DNA from: an uncultured Anaerovibrio sp.
Lineage (GTDB): Bacteria; Bacillota; Negativicutes; Selenomonadales; Selenomonadaceae
NCBI RefSeq assembly: GCF_947302755.1
Contig: NZ_CAMYWM010000004.1
Span: forward strand, 1-51,902
Direction: 5' to 3'
Length of the DNA: 51,902 nucleotides
In this document: positions 3,061 through 50,758 of the stretch, one piece after another
How positions within the stretch are numbered: the first letter of the stretch is position 1
How the letters are laid out: each line of letters starts with the position of its first letter
Notes under the pieces: generated by a model
Seen by the model: the letters and a program-made list of their open reading frames with translations, nothing else
Databases searched by the model: none
Told to the model about the DNA's origin: nothing
Program-made: the position numbers and the translations under genes

Positions 3061-3582
3061 ATGGATACGCAGGAAAGACGGGAATTGCTGCTGCATACCT
3101 TAAAGCAGGCCCAGGGCCCTCTTACAGGAGGCTTTTTATCAGGAAAATTTAATGTCAGCCGTCAGATCATCGTGGGGGATATCAGCGTCCTTCGGGCTGG
3201 CGGGGCAATAATATACGCTACGCCCCGGGGCTATGTTATGCCGGAAAATGGGGAGGTTCATGGTATAGTGGGGATTATTGCCTGTAAGCATGGCCCTGAG
3301 CAAATGCGCCGTGAGCTGGAAATAATCGTTGATAATGGCGGATATGTGCGGGATGTGATTGTGGAGCATCCTCTTTATGGTGAAATACGGGCTGATTTGA
3401 TGCTTAGAAACCGGCATGATGTGGAGGTTTTTGATAATCGCATGAAGGAATGTGCGGGGATGCCCTTGTCCATAGTGACCCAGGGGGTGCATCTCCATAC
3501 TATCGAGGCACCGGATCAGGAAACCCTGGAGCGGATAAAAAGGCAGCTGCGTCAGGAAAATATCTGTGCCAACAAGGCATGA
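3061..3582 (+). CDS. niaR: NiaR-type transcriptional repressor (HTH + 3H domain)
   Basis: A niacin-responsive repressor (YrxA/NiaR family) that in Firmicutes senses nicotinic acid and represses NAD synthesis or niacin uptake genes. Residues 1-60 form an HTH_11 winged helix; residues about 70-170 form a 3H domain. The candidate metal site is H77, E85, H144 and H146, which match in number and spacing the metal ligands I remember for the Thermotoga NiaR structure. Length (173 residues) is typical. I chose ATG 3061 because AGGAGGGG lies 5-10 bases upstream; the open frame extends 48 bases further 5' without a good ribosome site. No niacin genes are in the window, so its targets lie elsewhere. Confidence 0.9.
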   Translation: MDTQERRELLLHTLKQAQGPLTGGFLSGKFNVSRQIIVGDISVLRAGGAIIYATPRGYVMPENGEVHGIVGIIACKHGPEQMRRELEIIVDNGGYVRDVIVEHPLYGEIRADLMLRNRHDVEVFDNRMKECAGMPLSIVTQGVHLHTIEAPDQETLERIKRQLRQENICANKA

Positions 3583-37461: not shown

Positions 37462-37486
37462 ATTATTATTAGTTACAACAGGTACA

Positions 37487-37612
37487 TGGGGAGGTACAAT
37501 GGGGAACGCTCTCGCTCACTAGTTTGCGTAGCGGATACTAAGCTCATCCTGCGCCTTTGGCTTGGATTCACTAAGTACCAACGCAAAATACGTCCCCATA
37601 TGCACCTCCCCA
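37487..37612. repeat. Long palindromic element downstream of dusB
   Basis: Outer arms TGGGGAGGT (37487-37495) and ACCTCCCCA (37604-37612), with second arms TGGGGA (37500) and TCCCCA (37593), form an interrupted inverted repeat of 126 bases. The inside is A/T and GC mixed with no open frame. It may act as a terminator for dusB, but there is no T-run. Confidence 0.6.
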
Positions 37613-41970: not shown

Positions 41971-41994
41971 CCTATTTGTAAGATGAATTTAATA

Positions 41995-42185
41995 AAGATT
42001 GGAACAGGTGCTGAAAAGCCTAACAGAGAAGCTGGTAAAAAGCCAGCACGGTCCCGCCACTGTATCAGGGAGCAAATCACAATATGTCACTGGAGAAATC
42101 TGGGAAGGCGTGATGAGCTATGAACTGGAGTCAGGAGAACTGCCTGTTTGACAATCACCGTTTGACCTGCGAGTGATGGGGAAGG
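41995..42185 (+). ncRNA. Cobalamin riboswitch 1
   Basis: It shows the conserved blocks of the B12 aptamer in order: GGAACAGGTGC, CACGGTCCCGCCACTGTA, GTCACTGG followed by TGGGAAGGCG, and the B12 box region GGAGTCAGGAGAACTGCCTG. The copy at 44113 is nearly identical in the last 65 bases. Its transcript meets three terminators (42211-42240, 42256-42299, 42374-42417) before any credible gene, so it appears to be an orphan or to control a small RNA. Confidence 0.93.
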
Positions 42186-42589: not shown

Positions 42590-42660
42590 ATAGAGGCTGA
42601 CTCTTTAGATATAGGCCAGCAGACGACAATTATCTGACAAATTTGGGAGGAGATTTTCTA

Positions 42661-44076
42661 ATGGACACAGCAATAATTTTTATTGCGCTTATTGGTCTTA
42701 TGTATATGGCATATCGCGGTGCTTCCGTAATCCTGGTGGCCCCTCTCTTTGCCGTAGTGGCCGCCCTTGGAAGTGAGCATGCAGCGTTACCTATTTTCAG
42801 TGAGCTCTATATGACCAAGGCTGCTGAATACATCAAGAATTACTATCCGATCTTTCTCTTTGGTGCTATCTTTGCCCGCCTTATGGAAAAGGGGGGCATG
42901 GCCGCATCTGTGGCAGGAAAGATTATTGAAATATTAGGTGAAAAACGGGCTGTGCTGGCTGTGCTTTTGGGCTGCGGTGCCCTGACCTACGGCGGCCTTT
43001 CCGTATTCGTGGTGGCATTTGTTATGTACCCCTTCGGTGCTGTGGTATTTAAAAAGGCTGATATTCCAAAGCGTCTGTTACCGGCTGCCCTGTGGATGGG
43101 TATATTCTCCTTTGCCATGGTTGCCCTGCCTGGTACGCCGCAGATTCAGAACATTATTCCTTCCTCCTATTTCGGAACCTCTACCTGGTCCGGTGTGGGA
43201 ATCGGTTTGTTCGCTTCTTTGGTATTCCTGCTCATGGGGTGGGGCTGGATTTCCTTTCGGGCCAAGCGGCTGAAGGCCAACGGTGAAGGCTACGGCCGTC
43301 ATATTGAATTCGGTCAGAGACGTCATAAGCTGCCTAATCCCAACTGGAAGGTTTCCTGTGTCCCCCTGCTGATGGTTATTGTTCTAAACGTAATTCTGTC
43401 CAATCCCTTTGCCTGGGAATGGGGCTTCCACTGGGATCAGAATTCTCTTGAGTCTCTGTCCGATATGAAGCTGTCTCTCCTGGCCCACTCGGTAGCCAAG
43501 ATTTCTGCCGGCTGGTCCATCAGTATTTCCCTGATTATCAGCTCCATTGCGGCAGCCTTTATTGCCCGCCGCCATCTTCGCCTTCAGGATGGTATGCTGC
43601 CTACCATTAACGGCTCGGCTGTATCCTCCTGCAGTGCAGTATTGAATGTGGCCTCCGGCTACGCCTTTGGTTGTGTAGTGGTAAGTCTGGGCGGCTTTGC
43701 CGTTATCAAGGATTTCCTGTTAAATCTGGATTTTGGTGGCGGCCCCCTGTTTTCGGCTGTGCTTACCACCAATGTTATGTGCGGTATAACCGGTTCCGCC
43801 TCCTCCGGCCTGACCATCGCCCTGTCTATGCTGGGTGATCAGTGGGCCCAGATGGCCACGGCTGCCGGCATTCCATTGGAGGTTCTCCATCGAATTGTGG
43901 CGGTTTCCTCCATCGGCATTGACCCGGTGCCCCATGCCGGTGCTCTGGTCACTCTGTTGGCCATTTGCGGCCTTAGCCATAAGGAATCCTATGCTGATAT
44001 TATTGTGCTGATGGGGATGAAGTTCCTCGTACCCTTCCTCTGTGTAATGTTCTATATGCTTACAGGTATTGCTTAA
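42661..44076 (+). CDS. GntP-family permease
   Basis: A 471-residue transporter with about 12 to 14 membrane helices. The C-terminal part (GSASSGLTIALSMLG, HRIVAVSSIGIDPVPHAGA, and the ICGLSHKESY loop) is typical of the GntP family, whose members carry gluconate, D-hydroxybutyrate, glycerate or similar hydroxy acids with protons. The N-terminal ARLMEKGGMAASVAGKI and the PGTPQIQN motif fit as well. Substrate cannot be told. It lies between two cobalamin riboswitches and may have been inserted there. GGGAGGAG precedes ATG 42661. Confidence 0.85.
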   Translation: MDTAIIFIALIGLMYMAYRGASVILVAPLFAVVAALGSEHAALPIFSELYMTKAAEYIKNYYPIFLFGAIFARLMEKGGMAASVAGKIIEILGEKRAVLAVLLGCGALTYGGLSVFVVAFVMYPFGAVVFKKADIPKRLLPAALWMGIFSFAMVALPGTPQIQNIIPSSYFGTSTWSGVGIGLFASLVFLLMGWGWISFRAKRLKANGEGYGRHIEFGQRRHKLPNPNWKVSCVPLLMVIVLNVILSNPFAWEWGFHWDQNSLESLSDMKLSLLAHSVAKISAGWSISISLIISSIAAAFIARRHLRLQDGMLPTINGSAVSSCSAVLNVASGYAFGCVVVSLGGFAVIKDFLLNLDFGGGPLFSAVLTTNVMCGITGSASSGLTIALSMLGDQWAQMATAAGIPLEVLHRIVAVSSIGIDPVPHAGALVTLLAICGLSHKESYADIIVLMGMKFLVPFLCVMFYMLTGIA

Positions 44077-44097: not shown

Positions 44098-44112
44098 ATA
44101 TCTAAATTAATA

Positions 44113-44325
44113 TTTGGAACAGGTGCCAATGCCTAATATAGGTTGGCCTAACATGAGAAACCGGTTAAAGGCCGGTACGGTCCCGCCACTGTAGCAGGGA
44201 GTCAGATCTTACTATGTCACTGGAGCATTCCAGGAAGGCAAGGTCATGACGATGAACTGGAGTCAGGAGAACTGCCTGTTGGACAATCACCGTTATTACC
44301 TGCGAGCGATAGGGAGGGGATTATT
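44113..44325 (+). ncRNA. Cobalamin riboswitch 2, upstream of cbiK
   Basis: It carries GGAACAGGTGCC, GGTACGGTCCCGCCACTGTA, GTCACTGG, CAGGAAGGCAAGG and GGAGTCAGGAGAACTGCCTG in the correct order. The following terminator (44353-44390) and the cbiK gene make it a standard off-switch: high B12 should stop transcription of the exported CbiK and perhaps the genes behind it. Confidence 0.95.
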
Positions 44326-44352
44326 TACAGGTTTCTTATGAGGTTGTAAGTA

Positions 44353-44390
44353 AAAGCTCTTTCACGCTGGTTCGTGAAGGAGCTTTTTAA
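44353..44390 (+). terminator. Riboswitch 2 expression-platform terminator
   Basis: AAAGCTCTTTCAC and GTGAAGGAGCTTT pair over 13 positions with one mismatch and continue into TTTTT, 31 bases before the cbiK start. Confidence 0.85.
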
Positions 44391-44421
44391 AATGTTTATT
44401 TATAAAGAGAGGTAAAGTATT

Positions 44422-45417
44422 ATGAAGAATTTGAAGAAAATGGTAGCATGTTCCCTGGCTTGTGCCGCACTGTTCTCTGTAAATGTCAACAGCACTGAGG
44501 CCGCCTATACCCTGAATCCGGAGGTTACCACAGCCACTACTGCTCTGAAGAATGCTTCCCAGATTGGCGTAATGGTAAATGAGAACAAGACCATGGCCAA
44601 GAAGGCCAACAAGGATGCCATTCTTGTAATGAGCTTTGGTACTACCTATAAGGATAATCGGGACAAAACCATTACCCAGACTGTAGCCGATATTCAGGCA
44701 GCTCATCCTGGTGTAAAGGTAGTTACTGCCTTTACTTCCCATATTATTATTGACCGCATCAAGGCCAATGAGGGTATTACCTACCCAACTCCTGAGCAGG
44801 CTTTGGAGCAGCTGAAGAAGGAGGGCTACACCCGGGTTGCCCTTACCACTCTGGATGTAATCCCAGGTATGGAATATTCCTATGATGTGGCTGTATTCCA
44901 TCAGTACAAGGACCAGTTCAAGAAGATGACCATGGGCACCTCTCTCATGTACTGGATGGGTCAGGAGGAGCAGCGTGATGATATCATGGAGACCATGAAG
45001 GCCTTTGCCACCCAGTTCCCAAAGATCGGTGCTGAGGATGCCGTTCTCATTCTGGAGCATGGTACCCCACATCCTGCCAATGCCTATTATACCGTAATGC
45101 AGAACCGCCTGAATCAGCTGGGCTACAGCAATGCTTACATTTATACTGTAGAGGGTTGGCCTGCCCTGAACGATATTATTCCTCAGCTTAAGGAAAAGGG
45201 CATCAAGAACGTTACTCTCATGCCTATGATGATGGTGGCCGGTGACCATGCCAACAATGATATGGCCGGTAATGAGGAGGATTCCCACAAGACCATTTTG
45301 ACCCAGTCCGGCTTCAACGTAAACACTTATATCCACGGTCTCGGTGAAAACAAGGCTATTCGTGACATCTATGTAAAGCGGGCTAACGAGGCCTGGGATG
45401 CTTTGCAGGCAAAATAA
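44422..45417 (+). CDS. cbiK: Exported CbiK-type cobalt/iron chelatase
   Basis: A 331-residue anaerobic cobaltochelatase homologue with a signal peptide (1-28, ending TEA-A), so it is exported, like the periplasmic CbiK-P of Desulfovibrio. The active-site residues known from Salmonella CbiK are kept: E151 (IPGMEY), H213 (LEHGTPHP) and H276 (VAGDHANND). Other marks are ILVMSFGTTYKDNRDKT and YTVEGWP. A periplasmic chelatase cannot serve the cytosolic B12 pathway directly, so a role in metal or tetrapyrrole handling at the envelope is more likely. It is controlled by riboswitch 2 and followed by exbB-exbD-tonB. Confidence 0.92.
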   Translation: MKNLKKMVACSLACAALFSVNVNSTEAAYTLNPEVTTATTALKNASQIGVMVNENKTMAKKANKDAILVMSFGTTYKDNRDKTITQTVADIQAAHPGVKVVTAFTSHIIIDRIKANEGITYPTPEQALEQLKKEGYTRVALTTLDVIPGMEYSYDVAVFHQYKDQFKKMTMGTSLMYWMGQEEQRDDIMETMKAFATQFPKIGAEDAVLILEHGTPHPANAYYTVMQNRLNQLGYSNAYIYTVEGWPALNDIIPQLKEKGIKNVTLMPMMMVAGDHANNDMAGNEEDSHKTILTQSGFNVNTYIHGLGENKAIRDIYVKRANEAWDALQAK

Positions 45418-45445
45418 TTATATTAAATAAAACCATTGAAGCAGT

Positions 45446-45475
45446 GCCCCCTTGGTTGTGATATACTAAGGGGGT
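45446..45475 (+). other. Hairpin between cbiK and exbB
   Basis: GCCCCCTT and AAGGGGGT can pair around GGTTGTGATATACT, followed by AATGTTTTG. It may be a weak terminator that lowers expression after cbiK, an mRNA-stabilising hairpin, or overlap a promoter for exbB (TTGAAG, then TGATAT at 17 bases). Confidence 0.4.
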
Positions 45476-45500
45476 AATGTTTTGCAAGGAGGATTTTTTC

Positions 45501-46118
45501 ATGGATTTAATCATGACTGGTATCAGTTTTTTTCACAAGGGCGGTCCGGTAATGTATATCTTGCTGCTGGCCTCCATATTTGTGGTGACCATCGCCATTG
45601 AGCGGACCATGTACTTTAATGCCAAGGATCCGGGCCGCAGCTTTGCCCGGGATTTTGCGGACAGACTCAGCCAAGGGGACCGGGAGGGAGCAGCCCGGCT
45701 GGCCGGCAGCACCAAAGGGGCCCTGCCCTCCCTGCTGGCCAAGGGAATGGCCTTTACCGGCAATGAAACTGTATCCCTCCATACCTTCTGGGAGGTTCAG
45801 TCCGGTATTGCCCTCACCCGCTTCCGTAAGCGGCTGTACTATTTAAATGTGATTGTTACCATGGCCCCTCTGCTGGGCCTTTTAGGCACCATCAGCGGTA
45901 TGATTTCCGCCTTTAGTGTATTCAACCTGGAATCCGGCCAGGCCGGCACCATTACCGGTGGCGTGGGTGAAGCCCTTATTGCCACGGCCATGGGCCTGTG
46001 TACGGCCATTATTGCCCTGGCAGTTCACGCCTATTTTACCCAGCGGATTGACAGTATCGTTTCCGATATGGAGCAGTGCTTCTCTCTGGCTGAGGGCATG
46101 GCAGAGGAGCGTGAGTAA
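45501..46118 (+). CDS. exbB: ExbB/TolQ-type proton channel
   Basis: A 205-residue MotA/TolQ/ExbB protein with three membrane helices (about 17-38, 114-140, 155-178) and a cytoplasmic loop between the first two. The signature is in helices 2-3: APLLGLLGTISGMISAF and GGVGEALIATAMGLCTAI. It forms the proton channel with ExbD and powers TonB. AAGGAGG precedes ATG 45501. It begins a coupled exbB-exbD-tonB set. ExbB rather than TolQ is chosen because tonB is adjacent. Confidence 0.93.
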   Translation: MDLIMTGISFFHKGGPVMYILLLASIFVVTIAIERTMYFNAKDPGRSFARDFADRLSQGDREGAARLAGSTKGALPSLLAKGMAFTGNETVSLHTFWEVQSGIALTRFRKRLYYLNVIVTMAPLLGLLGTISGMISAFSVFNLESGQAGTITGGVGEALIATAMGLCTAIIALAVHAYFTQRIDSIVSDMEQCFSLAEGMAEERE

Positions 46119-46119
46119 G

Positions 46120-46530
46120 ATGCGCATCCGCGACCGTCACGATTTTGATAAACCGGAGGTCATGATAATACCGATGATTGATATAATGTTCTTTCTGCTG
46201 GTATTTTTCATGCTCAGTACCCTGTATATGGTTAATTTAAAAACAGTTCCCGTAAATATGCCCAAGGCCCAAAGTGCGGAGACCCAGATGAATGTAAATT
46301 ATCTGGTGACTATGAAAAAGGATGGCTCCCTGTGGCTGGAGGACAAGCTTATCAGCGAACAGGAGCTTATTGCCAGGGCCAAGGCTGAAAGCTCCCGCAA
46401 TCCGCGGTTTGCCGTGGTTGTACGGGCTGACCAGAGCCTGGATTACGGCATGGTTATCGGTCTGTTGGATAAATTTAAGGCAGCAGGCATTACCAAGTTT
46501 GGCTTGGCGGCGGAATCCGGAGGTAATTGA
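46120..46530 (+). CDS. exbD: ExbD biopolymer transport protein
   Basis: A 136-residue bitopic protein: a short basic N-terminus, one membrane helix (about 17-37) with the proton-carrying D21 (IIPMIDIMFFLLVFFML) and a periplasmic domain ending in LDKFKAAGITKFGLAAE. It starts one base after the exbB stop. Forms the stator with ExbB. The long open frame 5' of 46120 overlaps exbB and is not used. Confidence 0.95.
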   Translation: MRIRDRHDFDKPEVMIIPMIDIMFFLLVFFMLSTLYMVNLKTVPVNMPKAQSAETQMNVNYLVTMKKDGSLWLEDKLISEQELIARAKAESSRNPRFAVVVRADQSLDYGMVIGLLDKFKAAGITKFGLAAESGGN

Positions 46531-46531
46531 T

Positions 46532-47374
46532 ATGGCCTCAGATAATTCAGACAAGAAGCGGGAATATCGGGCCTGGGCCGCCTCGCTGCTTATTCACCTG
46601 CTGATATTTGTCATTGTATGCCTTACGGGCCTCTTTGTGGTGGTATCCCCCCGTCAGGAGCAGCCGGTGGATGTAAGCCTCTATGATGCAGATGCCGGCG
46701 GAGGACATCAGGGCGGTGGTGCTTCGGCCCCTGCTCCTGCCCCTGAGTCGGCGGCCCCACCTCCGGCTGCTCCCTCCATTGATGATGTGGTGCTGGATAA
46801 GAAAAAGGAGGAAATCCTGCCCAAGATAGAGGAAACCTTTACCAGGGAGCCGGAAAAGCAGGAGCAATTTAAAAAGGAGCACAATGCCCCTGTAGCACCG
46901 GCCGTGGTAGCCAGTGCCAACGGAACTGATCAGGGGGATAAAACCGCCGTCCAGGGCGGCTCCGGCAGTGGCTCTGAGGGTACCGGTACGGGTAACGGCC
47001 CCGCCGGAAATGGTACCGGCAATGGCAGCGGTACCGGTGAGGGCAGCGGCAACGGCGATGGCGATGGTCCCGGCAGCGGTGACAGTGAAACCAAGCGTCC
47101 GGCCATATCCCCAACCCTGCTGGAGGCCCCTGAGCCCGAATATCCCGAAGACCTTCGCCAACGGAATATAAAGGGCCAGGTGGTGGTCCGTATCGTGGTG
47201 GGCACCGATGGCAGTGTAATGAGCGCGGAGATTGAAGACTCCTCCGGCTACGGGGAAATGGACCAATCAGCCCTGGATGCGGCCTGGGGATATCGCTATA
47301 CCACGGCCTATAACGAATACGGCCAGGCCGTAACCTTCCAAAAACGGGTGAGGATTACCTTTAAGCTGCGGTGA
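46532..47374 (+). CDS. tonB: TonB energy-transducing protein
   Basis: A 280-residue TonB: N-terminal anchor helix (about 16-38), a Pro/Ala/Glu region (PAPAPESAAPPPAAPS), a long Gly/Ser/Thr/Asn linker (about 130-180) and the C-terminal TonB domain (about 195-280; EPEYPEDLRQRNIKGQVVVR, GTDGSVMSAEIEDSSGYG). It links the ExbBD motor to outer-membrane receptors. The Gly-rich linker replaces the usual Pro-Lys/Pro-Glu rod. It overlaps nothing and starts one base after exbD. No TonB-dependent receptor is in the window. Confidence 0.92.
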   Translation: MASDNSDKKREYRAWAASLLIHLLIFVIVCLTGLFVVVSPRQEQPVDVSLYDADAGGGHQGGGASAPAPAPESAAPPPAAPSIDDVVLDKKKEEILPKIEETFTREPEKQEQFKKEHNAPVAPAVVASANGTDQGDKTAVQGGSGSGSEGTGTGNGPAGNGTGNGSGTGEGSGNGDGDGPGSGDSETKRPAISPTLLEAPEPEYPEDLRQRNIKGQVVVRIVVGTDGSVMSAEIEDSSGYGEMDQSALDAAWGYRYTTAYNEYGQAVTFQKRVRITFKLR

Positions 47375-47405
47375 TAACGAGTATTATTTTGCGGAGTACC
47401 CATTT

Positions 47406-48272
47406 ATGATAAAAATTCAAGGATTAATTAAGGAATTTCAAATAAAAAATAAAGAGAAAAAGACGGTTACCAAGCGGGCGGTGGATAATTTGTCACTCCA
47501 CGTGAAGCCGGGAGAGATATTTGGTATATTGGGCCCCAATGGGGCGGGCAAAACCACCACCATTCGCATGCTGACCATGGAAACCAGGCCTACCCTGGGG
47601 GAGATTTATTATAATGGGGAATCCATCAAAAAAAATCCCTTGGAAATAAAGAAGCTGATTGGGGTAGTACCCCAGCATATTAATTTTGACAATGACCTGA
47701 CGGTGGGGGAAAACATGGAGCTCCATGGCCGCCTGCACCATATGAGCAGCGACAAACGCCGGGCCCGTATCAAGGAAATGCTGGATTTTGTGGAGCTGGG
47801 GGATACCATTAACCGTATGCCCCGCTCCCTGTCCGGCGGTATGAAGCGGCGTCTGCTCATTGCCCGCTCCCTCATTCATGAGCCGAAGATTTTGTTTATG
47901 GACGAGCCTACGGTGGCCCTGGATCCCCAGGTGCGCCGCCGTATATGGGAGCTTATTCGGGTGCTGGCCGCCCAGGGGACTACGGTGATCATTACTACCC
48001 ATTATATTGAGGAGGCAGAAGCCCTCTGTAACCGGGTGGCTATTGTAAATAAGGGACGGCTGGTGGCCATCGACACACCGGAGGCCTTTTGCAACCGGCT
48101 GGGGCGCATTACGGTGGAGTGGGATGGGCCCAATGGCCACGAATATCAATTTTTTGAAAGCCGTCAGGAGGCAGCGGCCTTTGCCGGCACCCTGGAGCAT
48201 GGGGCCCATATCAGGCGAACCAATTTGGAGGATGCCTTTATTGAGCTTACGGGACGAAGGGAGGGTGTATAA
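47406..48272 (+). CDS. ABC-2 transporter ATP-binding protein
   Basis: A 288-residue ABC ATPase of the drug/antigen exporter class (CcmA/NodI/DrrA-like). Walker A GPNGAGKTT is near residue 43-51, signature LSGGMKRRLLIARSL near 141-155, Walker B ILFMDEPTVALD near 161-172, and the switch histidine in ITTHYIEEAE. The permease gene overlaps it by one base. Location 31 bases after tonB places it in the same transcription run. Substrate unknown; it is an exporter or efflux type by family. Confidence 0.88.
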   Translation: MIKIQGLIKEFQIKNKEKKTVTKRAVDNLSLHVKPGEIFGILGPNGAGKTTTIRMLTMETRPTLGEIYYNGESIKKNPLEIKKLIGVVPQHINFDNDLTVGENMELHGRLHHMSSDKRRARIKEMLDFVELGDTINRMPRSLSGGMKRRLLIARSLIHEPKILFMDEPTVALDPQVRRRIWELIRVLAAQGTTVIITTHYIEEAEALCNRVAIVNKGRLVAIDTPEAFCNRLGRITVEWDGPNGHEYQFFESRQEAAAFAGTLEHGAHIRRTNLEDAFIELTGRREGV

Positions 48273-49009
48273 TGCTAAGGGATATATGGACCGTCTTTTG
48301 GCGGGATTGGGTGGTATTAAAACGTCGTCTGCCCAAATTTATCCTCAGCCGCATGGTGGCTCCAATGCTGTATTTGGTGGCCTTTGGCTGGGGGCTGGGG
48401 CGAAGCATTCAGGTGGGCTCCGGCTCCTACCTTGACTTTTTGGTACCGGGCATCATGGCCCTGAATTCCATGAATATCAGCTACAACAGCCTCACCCCCC
48501 TGTGTACGGAACGGATTTACCATCGCAGCATTGGGGAATATATTATAGCGCCCATGCATTTCACTGCCTTTATTATCGGTAAGATTATGGCGGCGGTGCT
48601 GCGGGGCCTGATTTCCTCGGCCATTATTGTGGCTCTGGCCCTGGTCTTTGGGGCTCATTTAAATATTACTCCTCTTTTTTTGCTGATTCTTATTTTGAAT
48701 TGTGTTATATTTGCCGAGGTGGGCTTCTTTGCAGCCCTGAAAATGGACAGCTACGAGGAGCTGTCCCAGGTAAATACCTACCTGCTGCTGCCCATGTCCT
48801 TTTTGTGCGGTACCTTCTTTAGTACTCAGACCCTGCCTGAGGCGTTTCGCTGGTTTATTGAGGTGCTGCCCCTGACCCATACCAGCTACCTGCTTCGGGG
48901 GATTTCCACCCAGTCGCCGGTGGCCATGGAATCGGTGGCGGTGTTGACAGTATATGCTATAATAGGTTTTATATTAGGCAGTAAGGCCTTTAGGGATCAA
49001 TCAAAATAG
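48272..49009 (+). CDS. ABC-2 type permease
   Basis: A 245-residue membrane protein with six helices of the ABC-2 (NodJ/DrrB) family: N-terminal FWRDWVVLKRRLPK, RMVAPMLYLVAFGWGLGRSI, and PLTHTSYLLRGI before the last helix. It is the partner of the ATPase it overlaps. In Gram-negative bacteria this type exports drugs, lipids or glycans. Its link to metal uptake is by position only. Confidence 0.85.
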   Translation: MLRDIWTVFWRDWVVLKRRLPKFILSRMVAPMLYLVAFGWGLGRSIQVGSGSYLDFLVPGIMALNSMNISYNSLTPLCTERIYHRSIGEYIIAPMHFTAFIIGKIMAAVLRGLISSAIIVALALVFGAHLNITPLFLLILILNCVIFAEVGFFAALKMDSYEELSQVNTYLLLPMSFLCGTFFSTQTLPEAFRWFIEVLPLTHTSYLLRGISTQSPVAMESVAVLTVYAIIGFILGSKAFRDQSK

Positions 49010-49049
49010 AAGGATTTTACCTATAGGGTTGTATATAAAAAGGAATGCT

Positions 49050-49919
49050 ATGCTGAAACGATTATTTAGGCACTCCAAGGGAGAGGGCAATGACTGCTCC
49101 AGGCTGTGCTGTACGAAAATTGAAAATTTCACTGTGAAGGCCGGTAAGCTGACTATCTTTGAGAACGTGAATATCCACGTCCATTGTGGTCAGCTTACGG
49201 CAGTTATCGGTCCAAATGGGGCAGGGAAGAGTACCCTTCTTAAGGCAATTTTGGGGGAGGTCAGTCATACCGGTACCCTGAAATATACCGATGCCAAGGG
49301 AAAACGCACCGGCAAGCCCATTATTGGCTATGTGCCCCAATATTTGAACTTTGATGTCAGTGCGCCCATAACGGTACTGGACCTTTTTTCTGCCTGTCAG
49401 TCCTGGCGGCCCATTTGGCTGTTGCCCTCCAACCTCCGCAGTGAGGTGGAGAACAGCTTGAGGCGGGTTAAGGCGGCAGAATTGATTGACCGTCGGCTGG
49501 GAGCCCTGTCCGGTGGGGAGCTGCAGCGGGTGCTGCTGGCCCTGGCCCTCAATCCCATGCCGGATATTCTCTTGTTGGATGAGCCTGTATCCGGAGTGGA
49601 CCAAAATGGCCTGGAGATTTTTTACAATATATTGGAGGATTTGCAAAACAATGAGGATATGGCGATTATCCTTATTTCCCACGACCTTAACATGGTGGCC
49701 CGCCATGCTGACCAGGTGGTTTTGATGAATAAGGGTGTGGTGTGCAATGGTACTCCTGAGGCGGTCTTCAGCGATCATCGCACCAGAAAAATTTTCGGTA
49801 TGCTTACCGATGGCGGTACCCATCGGGGTGGCACCGGCTTTGTATGGGTGGAGCACAGGAAAAAACCACATGGTCAGTCCTGTGGCTGTCCCGAGTGCGT
49901 ATCAAAGGAGGTCGAATAA
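49050..49919 (+). CDS. Metal-type ABC transporter ATP-binding protein, ZnuC-like
   Basis: A 289-residue ATPase of the ABC-3 metal group (ZnuC/MntB/TroB). Walker A VIGPNGAGKSTLLKAILGE, signature LSGGELQRVLLALALNP, Walker B ILLLDEPVSGVD and the ISHDLNMVARHAD switch are complete. The N-terminus has a CC pair (SRLCCTKIENF) and the C-terminus ends with HRKKPHGQSCGCPECVSK, a His/Cys cluster that could bind a metal. ATG 49050 follows AAGGA; the 49029 TTG lacks a site. The permease follows with overlapping TAATG. No ZnuA-type binding protein is present. Confidence 0.88.
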   Translation: MLKRLFRHSKGEGNDCSRLCCTKIENFTVKAGKLTIFENVNIHVHCGQLTAVIGPNGAGKSTLLKAILGEVSHTGTLKYTDAKGKRTGKPIIGYVPQYLNFDVSAPITVLDLFSACQSWRPIWLLPSNLRSEVENSLRRVKAAELIDRRLGALSGGELQRVLLALALNPMPDILLLDEPVSGVDQNGLEIFYNILEDLQNNEDMAIILISHDLNMVARHADQVVLMNKGVVCNGTPEAVFSDHRTRKIFGMLTDGGTHRGGTGFVWVEHRKKPHGQSCGCPECVSKEVE

Positions 49920-50758
49920 TGGAATATATCTATGACCTCCTGAACGCCTTACCCTTTGAGTGGCTGGAATATGATTTTATGAAAAATGCCTTTTTGGCCA
50001 TTTTGCTCATAACGCCCCTATTTGGTCTGCTCAGCACCATGGTGGTGTCCAACCGCATGGCCTTCTTTTCCGATTCCCTGGGACATGGGGCCTTTACGGG
50101 ACTGGCCATTGGAGCTGTGGTGGGACTCTTTTCGCCCATGCTTTCTTTGCTGGTCTTTTCGGTAATCTTTGCCCTCCTTATCACCTGGATTAAGAATAAA
50201 AGCTCTGCTTCCACTGATACCATTATCGGGGTCTTTTCCTCCACTGGTATCGCCGTAGGTCTGATGATGATGTCCTATGGGGGCGGCTTCAATAAGTTCA
50301 GCAATTACCTGATAGGGGATATCCTCAGCATTACCACCCAGGAACTGGGCTATCTGGTTCTGGTTCTGGTGCTGGTGTTTATTGCCTGGGGGCTTATGTT
50401 CAATAAATTGCTGGTATTAAGTGTCAATCAGTCCTTTGCCCGCAGTCGGGGGATTAATGTAATATTGGTTGAGGCTGTATTTGCCGCCATGGTGGCGGTG
50501 GTGGTGGCCATCAGTATTCAATGGGTGGGGCTGTTGATTATCAACTCTTTGCTGGTACTGCCCGGGGCAGCAGCCCGCAATGTGTCCAACAGCGTTAAGC
50601 AATATCATGTCATGTCCGTGGGCAGTGCCATGCTATCAGGGATTTCCGGCCTTGTTTTGGCGTATCACTTCAATATGGCGGCGGGAGCCACCATCGTGGT
50701 AATTTCCGCCCTGATTTTCTTTATCACCATGGCCTTAAAGCCCTATTTTCTTCGCTAA
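49919..50758 (+). CDS. Metal ABC transporter permease, ZnuB-like
   Basis: A 279-residue ABC-3 family permease with about eight membrane helices. Family motifs include SNRMAFFSDSLGHGAFTGLAIG (about 44-65), KNKSSASTDTIIGVF and LLIINSLLVLPGAAARNVS. It pairs with the preceding ATPase (overlapping TAATG) and AAGGAGG lies upstream. Transport of Zn2+, Mn2+ or Fe2+ is typical; the cobalamin context leaves cobalt or a chelate possible. It is the last gene of the run that starts at cbiK. Confidence 0.9.
   Translation: MEYIYDLLNALPFEWLEYDFMKNAFLAILLITPLFGLLSTMVVSNRMAFFSDSLGHGAFTGLAIGAVVGLFSPMLSLLVFSVIFALLITWIKNKSSASTDTIIGVFSSTGIAVGLMMMSYGGGFNKFSNYLIGDILSITTQELGYLVLVLVLVFIAWGLMFNKLLVLSVNQSFARSRGINVILVEAVFAAMVAVVVAISIQWVGLLIINSLLVLPGAAARNVSNSVKQYHVMSVGSAMLSGISGLVLAYHFNMAAGATIVVISALIFFITMALKPYFLR

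Follow-up and report, generated by a model that had tools for sequence, protein, structure and literature searches.

The window analysed here is the whole stretch of 51,902 nucleotides that constitutes contig C4 of an uncultured Anaerovibrio sp. assembly (2.66 Mb, 214 contigs, 94% complete). It contains the gene cbiK, preceded by a cobalamin riboswitch. We propose that the encoded CbiK is probably a periplasmic cobalt- or corrinoid-handling protein of a B12-repressed and TonB-served regulon, and the Negativicutes counterpart of the Desulfovibrio protein CbiK-P. Handling of cobalt or corrinoids is the likeliest role of the exported CbiK, which is a conserved protein of Negativicutes; we recognised no earlier description of it from this class in the open-licence literature. 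The features that surround cbiK on its upstream side are as follows.

41989..42161, + strand: first cobalamin riboswitch, upstream of a CitMHS-like membrane protein gene (RF00174, 98.8 bits)
42658..44076, + strand: CitMHS-like transporter gene, with the first ATG chosen as start (PF03600, 28.2 bits, E 1.4e-6, below the cut-off of 31.9)
44104..44293, + strand: second cobalamin riboswitch, upstream of cbiK (RF00174, 97.6 bits)
44352..44387, + strand: hairpin with a T-run between riboswitch and cbiK (-20.5 kcal/mol, z -5.7)
44422..45417, + strand: cbiK, coding for a putatively exported protein of the class II chelatase fold with 331 residues and intact ligands E151/H213/H276 (PF06180, 271.4 bits)
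44422..44502, + strand: predicted signal peptide of CbiK, residues 1-27, with a conserved A27 and a low-confidence N-terminus in the structure model

The window CbiK passes the curated PF06180 score of 26.2 bits, and a structure search returned the expected chelatase fold. The three metal ligands, which the initial annotation had described as intact, are indeed present and invariant in 21/21 and 22/22 aligned proteins. The N-terminus is Sec-like, with early lysines, a hydrophobic stretch and A27 just before the likely cut, and A27 is identical in 21/21 and 22/22 aligned proteins. Thus the signal peptide already noted in the initial annotation gains support from sequence features, and CbiK looks like a protein that is exported via a Sec signal and cleaved after A27. 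Further features of the exported proteins are an N-terminal extension that is conserved (residues 29-60) and the loop YW[QM]GQE. The closest relatives of the window protein are found in Anaerovibrio sp. JC8 (93% identity) and four other Anaerovibrio records (91-92%), which places the host in this genus. Against the sirohydrochlorin cobaltochelatase equivalog NF047852 it scores 215.3 bits, under the cut-off of 400 bits, and the cytoplasmic CbiK paralog of the same genome likewise fails with 177.5 bits. An antisense open frame of 324 codons lies over cbiK (44362-45336, - strand), and comparable frames occur in 11 relative loci (cluster c5); as a gene it was dismissed as an overlap that is probably an effect of codon usage.

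Both window riboswitches exceed the RF00174 gathering score of 31.5 bits. The one before cbiK had been called in the initial annotation, which omitted the copy at 41989-42161, and its equivalent site is occupied in all five named Anaerovibrio loci. The hairpin at 44352-44387 is retained across alignment A4 and is likely the terminator of the expression platform; riboswitches that turn transcription off are typically followed by such a T-run hairpin and then the gene. The CitMHS-like gene adjoins cbiK in the same five loci and shares a short contig with CbiK in L180; it may belong to this B12 regulon. Among solved structures its product had no significant match (best E 0.1), and import of cobalt or of metal citrate is a possible function of the protein.

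Across the order, a sample of 121 genomes that are at least 85% complete gave a CbiK match in every case, although in G104, G114 and G116 this was a distant match of cytoplasmic type only. The named-genome loci are the best 80 of 306 CbiK relatives, chosen by similarity; they are not independent and contig ends truncate many of their flanks, for which reason the counts given for them should not be read as frequencies. By title, these relatives are nearly all Negativicutes, including Selenomonas, Anaerovibrio, Megasphaera, Veillonella, Phascolarctobacterium, Sporomusa, Pelosinus, Pectinatus, Mitsuokella, Megamonas and Schwartzia, in addition to one Acholeplasmataceae record and one assigned merely to Bacillota, which are perhaps mis-binned. 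With a riboswitch model built from 16 sequences, 60 of the 80 loci showed a cobalamin riboswitch whose end lies 100-478 bases before CbiK, and four more (L180, L191, L241 and L244) showed one farther upstream. Rfam searches found the riboswitch in 25/29 of the best CbiK loci (L003-L031, with L009, L010, L012 and L015 negative) and in eight of nine wider regions (L055 negative).

Signal-less relatives of CbiK (L068, L069, L072, L097-L101) also occur, and several of them retain the conserved stretch that follows the signal. Rfam detected a cobalamin riboswitch in none of eight signal-less loci (L069, L072, L096-L101); the signal-less copy of Schwartzia L241, however, has one ahead of it. These paralogs branch among the exported CbiK in a midpoint-rooted tree in which 7 of 30 inner branches are well supported. 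They had been considered as a second exported type, an idea that was dropped as their N-termini lack a signal.

The gene neighbourhoods of relatives suggest a connection of the exported CbiK with B12. Neighbours were counted by tblastn with self-set bit-score limits, as longest-frame gene calls gave artefacts and incomplete neighbourhoods. BtuF, BtuC or BtuD lies within 9 kb of CbiK in 19 of the 80 loci, on the same strand in 18 of them, and the order CbiK-CbiL-BtuF-BtuC-BtuD recurs in 10 Negativicutes loci. Same-strand ExbB, ExbD or TonB genes occur within the same distance in 8/80 loci from four genera, and a TonB-dependent receptor in 7/80. The survey of CbiK neighbourhoods suggested in the initial annotation thus revealed receptors, Btu genes and ExbBD-TonB together in three further genera: Schwartzia succinivorans L241 has the row CbiK-receptor-BtuD-BtuC-BtuF-ExbB-ExbD-TonB, in Megamonas L186 CbiK is followed downstream by receptor, Btu and TonB-system genes, and in Mitsuokella oral taxon 131 (L216) such genes lie upstream of it.

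Nine cobalamin riboswitches were found in the window's genome. Their targets comprise a BtuF-BtuD-BtuC-receptor set (C91), a BtuF-receptor pair (C34), and a Nik/Opp-type set of ATP-binding cassette (ABC) genes followed by CobW-like genes (C78); the remaining ones include those before a mutase (C3), the two window units and the contig ends C165 and C190. Four TonB receptors were found in this genome. Three of them are encoded behind cobalamin riboswitches other than that of cbiK, and two of these three have the B12 receptor model TIGR01779 as their best match, with scores below its cut-off. The receptor search called for in the initial annotation thereby found receptors behind further cobalamin riboswitches of the genome and none beside cbiK in the window. 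The B12-regulated receptors would form an ordinary client set for the window's ExbBD-TonB, and exbBD-tonB may be co-regulated with them. Together with the neighbourhoods in relatives, these riboswitch-linked receptors support the earlier proposal that an exported CbiK is tied to TonB-driven uptake.

Several members of this set are worth describing individually. On C93 (L048, 6169-9761) a riboswitch stands ahead of the genes for a TonB receptor of siderophore type and a solute-binding protein of family 5, which might together take up cobalt chelates. The fourth receptor (C17, L052, 205-2851) lacks a riboswitch and comes after the substrate subunit of an energy-coupling factor (ECF) transporter. 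On C3 (L046) the riboswitch at 2741-2929 directly precedes the gene of methylmalonyl-CoA mutase, which starts at 3097; as this enzyme depends on B12, it is an unexpected target for a switch turned off by B12.

Based on this arrangement, we propose the following course of events. At low adenosylcobalamin, the riboswitch would let transcription pass through the terminator into cbiK, as read from the anatomy of the leader. The product would be exported and cut after A27. In the periplasm, CbiK could use its E/H/H site to bind Co(II), or else a tetrapyrrole, such as a corrinoid, that TonB-dependent receptors deliver, and might hand this cargo toward inner-membrane transporters of the Btu or Nik type. 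ExbB-ExbD-TonB would energise the receptors, most of which stand under cobalamin riboswitches of their own. The ABC genes farther downstream would be a neighbouring module, most likely a ZnuCB transporter served by a ZnuA encoded elsewhere, as relatives suggest.

The genes that follow cbiK in the window are listed below.

45438..45483, + strand: strong conserved hairpin between cbiK and exbB (-26.1 kcal/mol, z -4.9)
45501..46118, + strand: exbB (PF01618, 89.5 bits)
46120..46530, + strand: exbD (PF02472, 94 bits)
46532..47374, + strand: tonB (PF03544, 64.9 bits)
47406..48272, + strand: ABC-2 exporter ATPase, DrrA/NodI-like (PF00005, 122.7 bits; TIGR01188, 273 bits, below the cut-off of 312.45)
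48272..49009, + strand: ABC-2 permease (PF01061, 82.5 bits)
49050..49919, + strand: ABC-3 type ATPase, ZnuC/MntA-like (NF053840, 173.8 bits, and NF007090, 162.4 bits, both below cut-off)
49919..50758, + strand: ABC-3 family permease, ZnuB/AztB-like (PF00950, 177.6 bits)

Searches of open reading frames and profiles reproduced the gene order of the initial annotation, with all genes from cbiK to the ABC-3 permease on the + strand, a biggest gap of 83 bases, and the three subunits of the ExbB-ExbD-TonB energiser present and adjacent. Its statement that no strong terminator lies inside this row was not confirmed, given the hairpin at 45438-45483. The core of this hairpin is identical in all six Anaerovibrio genomes, with variable flanks, and was also listed by a terminator scan; the loop is invariant too and contains the extended -10-like sequence TGATATACT. 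The pattern is present as a single copy in the window, with no further site among the 251 loci searched. Judging by its sequence, the hairpin may be a terminator, or a promoter or operator for exbB. It is quite possible, if somewhat short of probable, that exbB and the following genes are merely juxtaposed, with a promoter of their own and free of B12 control, leaving cbiK alone in the riboswitch unit. The strength of the hairpin and its invariant, promoter-like loop argue for this arrangement, whereas the company that ExbBD-TonB genes keep with CbiK and Btu genes in three further genera argues against it. Such a juxtaposition is compatible with the best explanation for cbiK, and the gene order in those genera favours a functional link of ExbBD-TonB with CbiK whatever the transcript.

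Some observations weigh against CbiK being a periplasmic cobalt- or corrinoid-handling protein of a TonB-served B12 regulon. First, the hairpin, a strong conserved element between the two genes, may stop the riboswitch transcript ahead of exbB, so that B12 control may not extend from cbiK to exbB and the genes after it. Second, profile searches found neither a TonB receptor nor a Btu gene adjoining cbiK in the window. Third, a siderophore-type score, and not a B12-type one, was obtained for one of the three receptors behind riboswitches. Fourth, CbiD is present in 119/121 genomes of the order; as they can build the corrin ring themselves, these organisms have a source of B12 besides uptake. 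Finally, 16 of the 80 loci gave no riboswitch at E 0.01, and relaxing the threshold to E 10 yielded three weak matches in them, none within 1 kb upstream. Six of these 16 loci have a 7-base motif resembling the B12 box within 900 bases upstream, and divergent switches may therefore be missed.

A different cargo would make the exported CbiK a haem dechelatase, which strips or swaps the metal of haem or porphyrins imported via TonB, as proposed for IhtB/FetB of Porphyromonas gingivalis. An exported chelatase fold next to TonB-system genes would suit such an enzyme, yet we consider it improbable. Control is exerted by a B12 riboswitch and not by iron or haem, the neighbours are Btu and CbiL genes, and the window protein is slightly nearer to Salmonella CbiK than to FetB. 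In addition, CbiK-P of Desulfovibrio has two histidines, His96 and His103, which we take to be its haem site. With the numbering of the PDB sequence of CbiK-P (2xvz), the equivalent of His96 (window position 153) is never His in the aligned proteins (0/21 and 0/22; Ser153 in the window), and that of His103 (position 160) is His in 7/21 and 5/22, and the window has His160. The absence of the first of these presumed haem-site residues weakened a haem-type CbiK-P identity for the window protein.

CbiK might instead be a biosynthetic cobaltochelatase that happens to bear a signal peptide and still charges sirohydrochlorin with cobalt, whether prior to its own export, while at the membrane, or on substrate that has been exported. 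This too is doubtful, though it draws on a puzzle. All 14 sampled genomes of genus g5, apparently oral Selenomonas, have a single CbiK match, the exported one. CbiX was sought in 15 single-CbiK genomes (11 of the 14 from g5, and four from three other genera) and was absent outside the CbiK gene from all 15, though CbiD is present. In 13 of the 80 loci the 9 kb around CbiK include a same-strand gene for CbiL, which acts on the product of the chelatase; in 12 of the 13 the CbiL gene is at most 260 bases downstream of CbiK. By contrast, sirohydrochlorin and CbiL are both cytoplasmic, and the window's genome possesses a second, signal-less CbiK. Moreover, 14 of the 15 single-CbiK genomes encode a protein of the CysG/Met8 type that may be capable of cobalt insertion; because it may supply the chelatase step, the puzzle is a lead rather than a result. 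A bolder, rather speculative version would have Negativicutes conduct some of their cobalt metabolism outside the cytoplasm: the exported CbiK would load or strip Co(II) on periplasmic tetrapyrroles within a B12-repressed uptake route, perhaps with the CitMHS-like protein, behind its own riboswitch, as cobalt importer. In oral Selenomonas, which build corrins without any further detectable CbiK or CbiX, it would be the sole dedicated class II cobaltochelatase. Altogether, we retain periplasmic handling of cobalt or corrinoids as the preferred reading.

The last four genes of the row are probably a separate neighbouring module. ZnuC- and ZnuB-like subunits are recognised by the ABC_tran and ABC-3 Pfam models, with the ZnuC and ZnuB equivalog cut-offs missed. 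The block lies downstream of CbiK in 22/80 loci and never together with same-strand Btu genes (0/80); within the genus it also occurs without CbiK (L131), and in Megamonas L128 a Fur-family gene sits between the ABC-2 and ABC-3 pairs. We therefore read the block as a zinc module that frequently lies near CbiK. A dispersed palindromic element of ~127 bases stands between the ABC-2 and ABC-3 genes in L172, L173, L174 and L176, and at 37485-37610 (- strand) in the window; the copies are 87-100% identical to that of L173, and Rfam gave no match for the element in the window or L054.

The initial annotation had called the ABC-3 transporter binding-protein-less and suggested that CbiK stands in for ZnuA as its binding protein. 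The first description is true of the window locus and not of the genus; the second was not borne out, and we regard it as extremely improbable. It could draw on the 22 loci with the ABC-3 pair downstream of CbiK and on the lack of a ZnuA match in the 94% complete assembly of the window's genome (G000). However, ZnuA is present in 119/121 genomes of the order, including all 11 genomes sampled from the rest of the genus, alongside an ABC-3 permease in 120/121, and L131, L133 and L134 have the ABC-3 pair without a nearby CbiK. The missing gene appears to coincide with a contig end. In L122, presumably from A. lipolyticus LB2005, a BtuF-BtuC unit is followed by ZnuA and a Fur-family gene, both in the opposite orientation, and L123 (RM50) has the same gene order. 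Contigs C165 and C163 of G000 match this stretch at 97-99% and end ~1.2 kb short of the ZnuA position; ~2 kb of C163 within the matching stretch is missing from L122. JC8 has its ZnuA elsewhere (L121), and since the corresponding site in G000 (C34) lacks ZnuA, the argument from the contig gap rests on L122. We infer that ZnuA is encoded in the window's genome.

These findings suggest that a B12-controlled exported CbiK, known from Desulfovibrio, is widespread among the diderm Firmicutes that provide rumen and gut with B12, where it sits by genes for TonB-driven uptake. They also pose a testable puzzle, namely genomes apparently equipped to build corrins whose sole detectable chelatase of the CbiK/CbiX type bears a predicted signal peptide.

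Comparison with known systems places the window in a recognisable family of arrangements. The ZnuC- and ZnuB-like pair at 49050-50758 is shared with the zinc importer ZnuABC, but ZnuA of the relatives is encoded elsewhere, adjoining the Fur-family gene in L122. Compared to the cytoplasmic sirohydrochlorin cobaltochelatase CbiK of Salmonella (1qgo), the Negativicutes protein adds the signal peptide, the extension at residues 29-60 and the YW[QM]GQE loop. BtuS and HmuS of Bacteroides are also periplasmic chelatase-like proteins of uptake operons; they belong to a different protein family, CobN (pfam02514), with a mutant phenotype in the use of haem iron (PMC6460266). The IhtABCDE system of P. 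gingivalis likewise combines an exported protein of the CbiK fold (IhtB/FetB; 9b86) with a TonB receptor and an ABC importer (PMC10913741), and Schwartzia L241 is the locus most similar to it. IhtB is described as a putative lipoprotein and its system is linked to haem and iron (PMC10913741), whereas the Negativicutes protein shows no conserved lipobox cysteine and is under B12 riboswitch control. Profile searches of the window block detected no receptor with a binding protein, permease and ATPase in one operon, as in Iht.

The closest counterpart is CbiK-P of Desulfovibrio, with which a CbiK-type protein under a B12 element, here predicted to be exported, is shared. In Desulfovibrio one B12-element governs cbiK-cbiL and btuCDF, in an account whose relevant part does not state which CbiK is meant (PMC545781). 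A cobalamin riboswitch near cbiKP of Oleidesulfovibrio alaskensis G20, as given in a further report, links this element to the periplasmic protein (PMC11124144). The Negativicutes proteins differ from CbiK-P in that the presumed haem-type histidines are not conserved; ExbBD-TonB and receptor genes are additions in some genera, and the window has no CbiL or Btu genes adjoining cbiK. Given this counterpart and the CbiK-CbiL-BtuF-BtuC-BtuD order in Negativicutes, the window is therefore best regarded as a known kind of system in another phylum and with other neighbours.

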